From the NCBI GenBank assembly GCA_020832925.1, contig JAJHRF010000004.1:1-64000 (forward strand): a stretch of DNA of 64,000 nt. The letters run 5' to 3'. Positions 22,144-59,472 of this stretch are shown one piece after another. Origin of the DNA: Desulfurococcaceae archaeon (GTDB taxonomy: Archaea > Thermoproteota > Thermoprotei_A > Sulfolobales > Ignisphaeraceae). The first letter of the stretch is position 1, and every line of letters begins with the position of its first letter. Both the position numbers and the translations under genes were made by a program. A model generated the notes under the pieces. That model worked only from the letters and a program-made list of their open reading frames with translations, was not told the DNA's origin and ran no database searches.

Positions 22144-22470
22144 GTGGAAAATATTAGTGGGCCTCTGTCTCCGTTCTATCGAATTAAAAGACAGAGGTAT
22201 AGGAACAGGACCTATTACTATCTTTATAAAGAATGGTATAATGCTAATGCTAAGAGGAAGAGGTCTAAGCTTATTGGTAGATGCGATGAGCTGGAGAAGA
22301 TCGTTGAGGAGCTTGAGAAGCTTAAGCAAGGAGTTGATAGTTGTTGGTGCGGGGGGTGGGATTTGAACCCACGCAGGCCTACGCCAGCGGGTCTTAAGCC
22401 CGCCCCCTTTGACCTAGCTCGGGCACCCCCGCACTTATTTACAGCTCTATTTTCATATTTTGTTTTTTAG
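22144..22470 (+). mobile_element. Int(N) stub of an SSV-type integrase overlapping tRNA-Leu
   Basis: The frame reads YYLYKEWYNANAKRKRSKLI then GRCDELEKIVEELEKL before running antisense through tRNA-Leu as GGWDLNPRRPTPAG. This is the layout of SSV-family integrases, whose N-terminal part has a Y-x-Y-x-Y/K short basic region and whose coding sequence spans the att site, so integration splits it into Int(N) at the intact tRNA and Int(C) at the far end. The stub points at the tRNA 3' end as the model requires. No Int(C) with catalytic R-H-R-Y residues was seen to the left. Start uncertain (GTG at 22144). Confidence 0.6.
22345..22432 (-). tRNA. tRNA-Leu (anticodon TAA), CCA encoded
   Basis: Minus-strand cloverleaf of 88 bases with acceptor stem GCGGGGG/CCCCCGC, long variable arm typical of leucine tRNAs, anticodon loop CTTAAGA giving TAA, T loop GTTCAAATC, discriminator A and encoded CCA at 22347-22345. 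No intron. Its 3' half is overlapped by the Int(N) reading frame. Confidence 0.95.
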
Positions 22471-22493
22471 GGGTTAAATATTTATCAATACTT

Positions 22494-22549
22494 GGCTGTG
22501 ATGATGCACGAGCGTGTTGATTTATGATGTATGTCAAGAGTACTGAGCC
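22494..22549 (+). ncRNA. C/D box sRNA, candidate 2, overlapping a gene start
   Basis: C GTGATGA (22498-22504), 12-base guide TGCACGAGCGTG (22505-22516), D' TTGA (22517-22520), C' ATGATGT (22524-22530), 12-base guide ATGTCAAGAGTA (22531-22542), D CTGA (22543-22546). GGC (22494-22496) and GCC (22547-22549) close a short stem. C' contains the ATG start of the THUMP gene. TTAAATATTTATC upstream may serve as promoter. Confidence 0.68.
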
Positions 22550-23060
22550 GAGAGTATTTATTACTTGTGGTGTTGGTAAGGAGAAGTTTGTTTGTGATGA
22601 TGTTAAGAATATTTTATTTAGTGTTGGTGTTGATGTTGAATGTAGAAGTTTTGATGGTAGAGGTTTTGTTGTTATTTACTTTGGCGATGATGTTGATGTT
22701 ATTAAGGTTGTTAGAATTCTTGTTTCTAGGTATGTTAGGGGGTACTGGGTTATACCAATTGATATGGTCTGTAGAAGTAGTTATGAAGAAGTGTCGAAGT
22801 GTGCTATAGAAATTATTCTTTTGAAGGGCTTAGATCTTCCTCTACGTTTAGTTGGTGTTTGTAGGAAACGTGGTTTTGCTATAGATTCGTGTTCTAATCT
22901 TCTTAGATATGTAGGTGAGAAATTAGAGTCTTTAGGTATAGCTGTTGTGGATTTCAAGGATTACGACTATGTTCTTAGGATTGAGGTTGTATATGAAGAT
23001 ACTTTCTTATCACTTTACAGAAAAGAACAAGAGACTTTGTTTAGAGTTCAAAGGAGGTAA
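22524..23060 (+). CDS. THUMP-domain RNA-binding protein
   Basis: 178 residues. The body matches the THUMP fold of tRNA-modifying enzymes: an N-terminal ferredoxin-like part (RVFITCGVGKEKFVCDDVKN) and the THUMP core with CAIEIILLKGLDLPLRLVGV then CRKRGFAIDSCSNLLRYVGE and VLRIEVVYEDTFLSLYR. It has no catalytic domain, like Tan1/THUMPD1, which helps acetylate cytidine in tRNA; that role is inference. The annotated ATG lies inside the C/D box sRNA candidate, so translation may begin later or from the same transcript. The GTG-rich, TTT-rich first half is unusual. Confidence 0.75.
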   Translation: MMYVKSTEPRVFITCGVGKEKFVCDDVKNILFSVGVDVECRSFDGRGFVVIYFGDDVDVIKVVRILVSRYVRGYWVIPIDMVCRSSYEEVSKCAIEIILLKGLDLPLRLVGVCRKRGFAIDSCSNLLRYVGEKLESLGIAVVDFKDYDYVLRIEVVYEDTFLSLYRKEQETLFRVQRR

Positions 23061-59423: not shown

Positions 59424-59472
59424 GTGATGAAGGCTATTGGTTCTGATAAGTGATGATACGGCGGAGAACTGA
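59424..59472 (+). ncRNA. C/D box sRNA, candidate 3
   Basis: All four boxes match the consensus and both guides are 12 bases: C GTGATGA (59424-59430), guide AGGCTATTGGTT, D' CTGA (59443-59446), spacer TAA, C' GTGATGA (59450-59456), guide TACGGCGGAGAA, D CTGA (59469-59472). The end stem is weak. It would direct 2'-O-methylation of RNAs reading AACCAATAGCCT and TTCTCCGCCGTA; targets not identified. Lies in the spacer between DUF3786 and the isomerase remnant. Confidence 0.78.

Follow-up and report, generated by a model that had tools for sequence, protein, structure and literature searches.

The window analyzed here, a 64-kb stretch of DNA from a heat-loving Ignisphaera-type archaeon, carries a C box, a guide, a D' box, a C' box, a second guide, and a D box in exact order at positions 22498-22546 of the forward strand (Table 1). 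A TTT spacer separates the D' box from the C' box, and the element is flanked by a terminal stem of 3-6 bp (CTTGGC at 22491-22496 and GCCGAG at 22547-22552). This order, with guides of 12 nt, is that of an archaeal box C/D sRNA, in which guides of 10-12 nt are expected. The start codon of a genuine open reading frame (ORF) encoding a THUMP-fold protein lies inside the sRNA, as in 5'-overlapping C/D sRNA genes. Read from the sequence, the element is confirmed as a box C/D sRNA whose C' box is also the THUMP start codon.

Table 1. Features at the start of the THUMP gene and its upstream flank, in window coordinates.
Feature	Position	Strand	Basis and remarks
tRNA gene, divergent neighbor	22348..22432	-	Rfam tRNA, 56 bits; leucine from the TAA anticodon is our own reading
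AT-rich promoter-like stretch GTTAAATATTTATC, preceded by GGG	22473..22486	+	predicted from sequence
Box C/D sRNA with terminal stem	22491..22552	+	stem 5' strand 22491-22496, 3' strand 22547-22552
C box GTGATGA	22498..22504	+	direct sequence; relatives in family f1 keep RTGAYGA
D' guide TGCACGAGCGTG, 12 nt	22505..22516	+	predicted 23S target AACGCTCGTGCC; methylated C at about E. coli 2397
D' box TTGA, non-canonical	22517..22520	+	relatives mostly NTGA; GAGA in G009
C' box ATGATGT, holding the THUMP ATG at 22524	22524..22530	+	A/GTG-AT here in 13/13 orthologous coding sequences
D guide ATGTCAAGAGTA, 12 nt, within codons 3-7	22531..22542	+	predicted 23S target [A/G]C[C/U]CUUGACA; C at about E. 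coli 2354
D box CTGA, codons 7-8 (ACT GAG)	22543..22546	+	NCT GA fixed in 13/13 coding sequences
Stand-alone THUMP-fold protein gene, 178 aa	22524..23060	+	AlphaFold2 model, Foldseek, Pfam in distant orthologues

The earlier note on this DNA had described a full C-D'-C'-D layout with two 12-base guides, the C' box containing the ATG of the gene and the D box lying in codons 7-8; every part of this description is exact in the sequence (ATG at 22524, ACT GAG). A strict C/D descriptor matched the window twice (at 22498 and 59424), compared with no match in 200 dinucleotide shuffles and none in the reversed control of 1.19 Mb from the relative G009. At the gathering threshold, Rfam gave no C/D match in the window. 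The D' (TTGA) and C' (ATGATGT) boxes are non-canonical in the window, and both are weak in several other genomes; such non-canonical boxes are common among archaeal C/D sRNAs. The terminal stem forms 3-6 bp in most genomes and is missing or poor in at least four (G004, G005, G007, G008). Across 16 genomes, its first three positions form 35 of 48 possible pairs against 27.2 with permuted partners (p=0.004), whereas the excess is not significant when 4-6 bp are counted.

Judged from its modeled fold, the protein encoded from this start codon is a stand-alone protein of the THUMP type named in the earlier note. An AlphaFold2 model built with 22 relatives has a pLDDT of 94.1, with disorder limited to residues 1-5, and its 25 best Foldseek matches in the PDB are RNA-modification proteins that are THUMP-containing or THUMP-like (the top matches being CDAT8 3g8q, ThiI-type PH1313, Trm14, TrmN, ThiI, Trm11, and RlmM). 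The window protein itself has no match in Pfam or NCBIfam, so the assignment is based on the fold and on distant orthologues in which Pfam does detect THUMP (L023, 3.6e-7; L016, 3.1e-6). Tan1/THUMPD1, an acetylation adaptor that partners a cytidine acetyltransferase on a tRNA target, may offer a lead for its role. Like Tan1/THUMPD1-like stand-alone THUMP proteins, the window protein has an N-terminal domain followed by THUMP and no catalytic domain visible in its 178 aa; it differs from them in being very divergent, to the point that Pfam gives no score. Because no in-frame ATG, GTG, or TTG occurs from codon 3 to codon 60, the C' box must be where translation starts. The alternative raised in the earlier note, that translation begins downstream, is not supported, given this absence and the A/GTG found at the C' box in all 13 aligned Ignisphaeraceae-type orthologues.

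Conservation was read locus by locus in a sample of 18 genomes of f1, the family of the window; most of these relatives are metagenome bins. The overlap, whose retention in related genomes had been put forward as a check, is kept: besides the window, 14 f1 genomes in five genera carry the sRNA at the start of the THUMP gene. In 12 of the 14, as in the window, the C' box supplies the A/GTG start of the gene, and codons 7-8 hold the D box; in G016 the start codon is closer to the D' box, and in G012 it comes shortly after the C' box. The core of the D' guide (ACGAGCG) is almost invariant in f1 and recurs in parts of the families f2 and f4. Most f1 genomes have a TGTCAAG(G/A)G-like D guide, which differs in G008, G012, and G016; in two of the 14 relatives (G012 and G016) it has been replaced. 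The 13 aligned coding sequences have intact frames and encode proteins with 40-56% identity. The THUMP protein of G012 (L023/L035) is closer to the f4 type, with about 20% identity to the window protein, and the sRNA at its start combines the f1 D' guide with a different D guide; the gene may have been replaced under a retained sRNA.

One f1 genome, G017, has kept the sRNA and lost the gene. Its THUMP frame stops after 14 codons, yet the C box, the D' box, the D guide, and the D box are still present, and the converging next gene (converging also in G011) ends a few dozen bases downstream; by these signs in the sequence, the THUMP gene is deleted. At this locus (L045, reverse complement about 1501-1600), the converging gene that faces the 14-codon THUMP stub looks PUA-like by eye.

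The codons shared by the sRNA and the THUMP gene are, on the evidence of codon choice, under constraint at the RNA level. Valine 4 is encoded by GTC in 11 of 12 genomes, compared with 10.7% of the valines in the bodies of the same genes (p=2e-10), and codon 7 is NCT in all 13 coding sequences although its residue varies between Ala, Ser, and Thr (p=8e-6); both p-values are nominal and ignore the kinship of the genomes. The arithmetic of the frame is such that a 7-nt box followed by a 12-nt guide puts the UGA of the D box out of frame (NCU GAN), which suggests how a gene can start in a C' box without running into a stop. The notion that the D guide is an orphan by-product of coding is rejected for most genomes by the GTC bias and the 23S matches described below; it was accepted for G008 and may hold for G012 and G016.

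Both guides have their best or near-best 23S rRNA match at the same two neighboring places across genomes. No assembled rRNA was found in the window genome, and the predicted targets were read from the 23S rRNA of relatives, in which AACGCTCGTGCC is complementary to the D' guide and, 45 nt further upstream, GACCCTTGACAG to the D guide. Alignment places the cytidines to be methylated at about 2397 (D') and 2354 (D) in E. coli numbering, within domain V. The D' guide forms 10 consecutive Watson-Crick pairs with the 23S rRNA of G002. The D guide forms 8-10 bp at the same place in seven of the eight relatives with their own 23S sequence; the duplex contains one internal mismatch in G002 and G009, and the match is lost in G008. 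For the predicted targets, both guides thus show the complementarity of about 9 bp and the N+5 position of the target nucleotide that are expected of C/D guides. By eye, the adjacent tRNA-Leu, considered as another guide target, showed no match.

At one position, guide and rRNA may have changed together through a Gly/Ser codon. In G004, G005, G006, and G010 the rRNA reads GCTCTTGACA (with U) and the guide TGTCAAGAG (with A, in a Ser AGT or Arg AGG codon), and in G007 the rRNA reads ACCCTTGACA (with C) and the guide TGTCAAGGGT (with G, in a Gly GGT codon). The matching base is missing in two of the four C-type genomes (G009 and G008), and a Fisher estimate is about 0.2; the pattern is suggestive only, and no statistical covariation is claimed because only eight genomes have both sequences. 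The 23S model matched G009, G006, G005, and G010 in pieces, by its 3' part alone (L027-L029, L065-L070), and no 16S was found in G009; introns, insertions, or a limit of the search are possible reasons.

When the 214 genomes of the order were searched with a pattern for the D' half of the sRNA, 28 matched, compared with none for the reversed control. The matches fall mainly in f1, in two genera of f2, and in two f4 genomes; those in G122 and G182 lie in coding sequence and look like chance, a few of the 28 are probably of this kind, and the status of G103 is doubtful. In the two f4 genomes (L031, L032), an sRNA with the same D' guide overlaps a Nudix hydrolase gene at its 3' end, stop codon included. 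In the sister family f2 (L051-L057, L104-L121), C/D sRNAs in at least six genera lie over the start of a nucleotidyltransferase-like gene. As in f1, these genes start at the C' box, and NCT GA recurs as the D box in nearly all cases (decayed in genus g28). The f2 D guide, AGC(A/G)AACC, is unlike that of f1 and is constant, whereas the D' guide varies in several genera and is that of f1 in two; in two f2 genomes with their own 23S sequence, the D guide matches 94 nt downstream of the D' site. Genera g60 and g62 also have the sRNA, but there it lies outside the gene frame. No such sRNA leader precedes the THUMP relatives of other families. The sRNA is not dependent on its THUMP partner, because G017 has lost THUMP and, in f2, the same D' guide belongs to an sRNA on an unrelated gene. 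The f1 and f2 sRNAs could have either one ancestor that changed its host gene or convergent origins.

Upstream of box C, the mean TTTAWA-like score over 15 relatives peaks at 34 nt. Single genomes have TTTATA, GTTATA, or ATTATA at -28 to -36 relative to box C, and the nearest TTTAWA-like matches in the window are at -25 and -34. The end of an equivalent tRNA gene lies upstream in several relatives (e.g., L002, L006, L012, L013).

Given the boxes, their conservation, the synonymous constraint, the target complementarity, the fold, and the independence of the sRNA from the gene, all read from sequence, we infer expression, methylation, a shared transcript, and an either/or outcome. The element is quite probably a functional double-guide sRNA, and the one RNA made from its promoter would be either packaged as a methylation sRNP or translated, not both at once. 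The sRNA, whose 3' half is shared with the first eight codons of the THUMP gene, would guide fibrillarin to a pair of domain V cytidines of 23S rRNA that are separated by 45 nt. A single RNA with the whole sRNA at its 5' end would arise from a promoter immediately before box C; a separate mRNA promoter downstream of box C is a conceivable alternative. Where L7Ae, Nop5, and fibrillarin assemble, this RNA would be trimmed to an sRNP, and the start codon in the C' box would be lost to translation; without sRNP assembly, translation could start at the ATG/GTG of the C' box and continue across the guide and box D. The protein would tolerate the guide sequence because its N-terminal tail is disordered. 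The mutual control of sRNA and THUMP gene that had been proposed earlier may follow from this arrangement and agrees with a published reduction of downstream reporter transcription by 5'-overlapping sRNAs (PMC7994747); it is possible that the competition between the two products is used as regulation, though passive hitch-hiking is at least as likely.

Two rival readings concern the boxes and the start codon. The boxes could be chance matches or translation-initiation signals conserved with the N-terminus, with no sRNA made. In many relatives GTGATGA runs across the D' region 2-8 nt before the start, and its GTGAT resembles a Shine-Dalgarno core complementary to the 16S 3' end GGATCACCTCC; this reading is nevertheless very improbable, because it accounts neither for the ACGAGCG core of the D' guide ahead of the ORF nor for the codon constraint (GTC, NCT), the complementarity to 23S rRNA, the copy in G017 that has no gene, or the occurrence of the same motif on another gene. 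Equally, a downstream start or a pseudogene, for which the modeled disorder of residues 1-5 could speak, is hardly credible against the lack of start codons between codons 3 and 60 and the 13 coding sequences with intact frames and A/GTG at the C' box. Independently of either reading, the complementarity of GTGAT to the 16S 3' end means that the D' box (window 22511-22520 and its equivalents) may double as a ribosome-binding signal.

The overlap itself could be either neutral or selected. There is about an even chance that the gene has merely borrowed the sRNA promoter and the RTG of the C' box, with passive competition between the two products and an overlap that persists because their separation would need a rare duplication. 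Archaeal sRNAs are known to be co-transcribed with neighbors and to use borrowed promoters (PMC5539422, PMC7994747), the host genes differ by family (THUMP in f1, nucleotidyltransferase-like in f2, the 3' end of Nudix in f4), and the sRNA occurs without start overlap in g60 and g62. For a purely harmful coupling, however, persistence over five genera of f1 and most of those of f2 is long. It is rather doubtful that the overlap was selected as a switch in which sRNP assembly, or L7Ae on the C/D kink-turn (k-turn), represses THUMP translation so that the output reports free L7Ae, Nop5, and fibrillarin. The predicted k-turn/k-loop as a whole does bracket the start codon, the arrangement is retained over five genera, L7Ae of Sulfolobus acts on k-turns in mRNA leaders to repress its own mRNA and probably that of nop5-fibrillarin (PMC5539422), and 5' overlaps lower downstream reporter transcription (PMC7994747). 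However, G017 has kept the sRNA with the gene gone, THUMP relatives of other families lack such a leader, the same D' guide recurs in an sRNA that overlaps an unrelated gene of the sister family, and conservation of guide and coding sequence alone would suffice for the overlap to persist. A fuller version is unlikely: in it, a selected bifunctional RNA would become either a 23S methylation sRNP or an mRNA, THUMP dosage would fall with a surplus of C/D core proteins, the guide would co-evolve with rRNA through N-terminal residues, and the device would have arisen separately on the nucleotidyltransferase-like gene.

The earlier note had called the overlap unusual, which holds for its conservation and not for its occurrence. 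An ORF is overlapped at its 5' end by about 7% of the C/D sRNA genes of archaea, and 5' overlap by an sRNA significantly lowered transcription of a downstream reporter gene (PMC7994747); in Nanoarchaeum, C/D sRNAs that overlap rRNA-modification genes were reported (PMC3491384). Because 5'-overlapping C/D sRNAs are already known, the THUMP-start sRNA is a well-conserved variant rather than a new class. Like those described in 2017 and summarized in PMC7994747, it has a start codon inside the sRNA and a compact shared sequence. In those cases a guide or the sequence following box D is the most frequent place of the start, whereas here it is the C' box. The THUMP-start sRNA further differs from known 5' overlaps in its dual-coded D guide, its family-wide retention, and the parallel case on another gene. 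Nanoarchaeum equitans likewise has C/D sRNAs overlapping genes of rRNA and tRNA modification enzymes, but the genes differ, and the accessible portion of that text mentions no family conservation, start-codon sharing, or guide-codon constraint (PMC3491384).

Double guides with both rRNA targets within 100 nt are common, and a 9-bp criterion has been used for them (PMC4644070). The THUMP-start sRNA resembles these in its two predicted 23S matches 45 nt apart, of about 9-10 bp and following the N+5 rule, and differs in that one guide is also coding sequence; positions 2354 and 2397 and H88 do not appear in the main text of that paper. The leader of the l7ae mRNA (PMC5539422) similarly has a k-turn, built of C-like and D-like strands, close to the start of the mRNA, although that k-turn lies in the 5' untranslated region and is not a guide, in contrast to a full C/D sRNA reaching into the ORF. 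The architecture of the THUMP leader is no more than compatible with an L7Ae-regulated leader, in which L7Ae bound to a leader k-turn represses translation.

In this locus, a guide RNA and protein codons share bases over family-level time, and the constraint on the RNA is visible in codon choice. The question of regulator or hitch-hiker also has a natural set of genomes in which the overlap is kept, the guide is lost (G008), the gene is deleted (G017), the sRNA is unlinked from the gene (f4), or the gene is an unrelated one (f2). The strict descriptor gave 16 C/D candidates in the 1.19 Mb taken from G009, and among these no other case was found that encloses the start of an ORF of at least 80 codons; the descriptor misses weak-box sRNAs, including G009's own copy of the THUMP-start sRNA. 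The second strict candidate in the window lies at 59424-59472 on the forward strand and reads GTGATGAAGGCTATTGGTTCTGATAAGTGATGATACGGCGGAGAACTGA.
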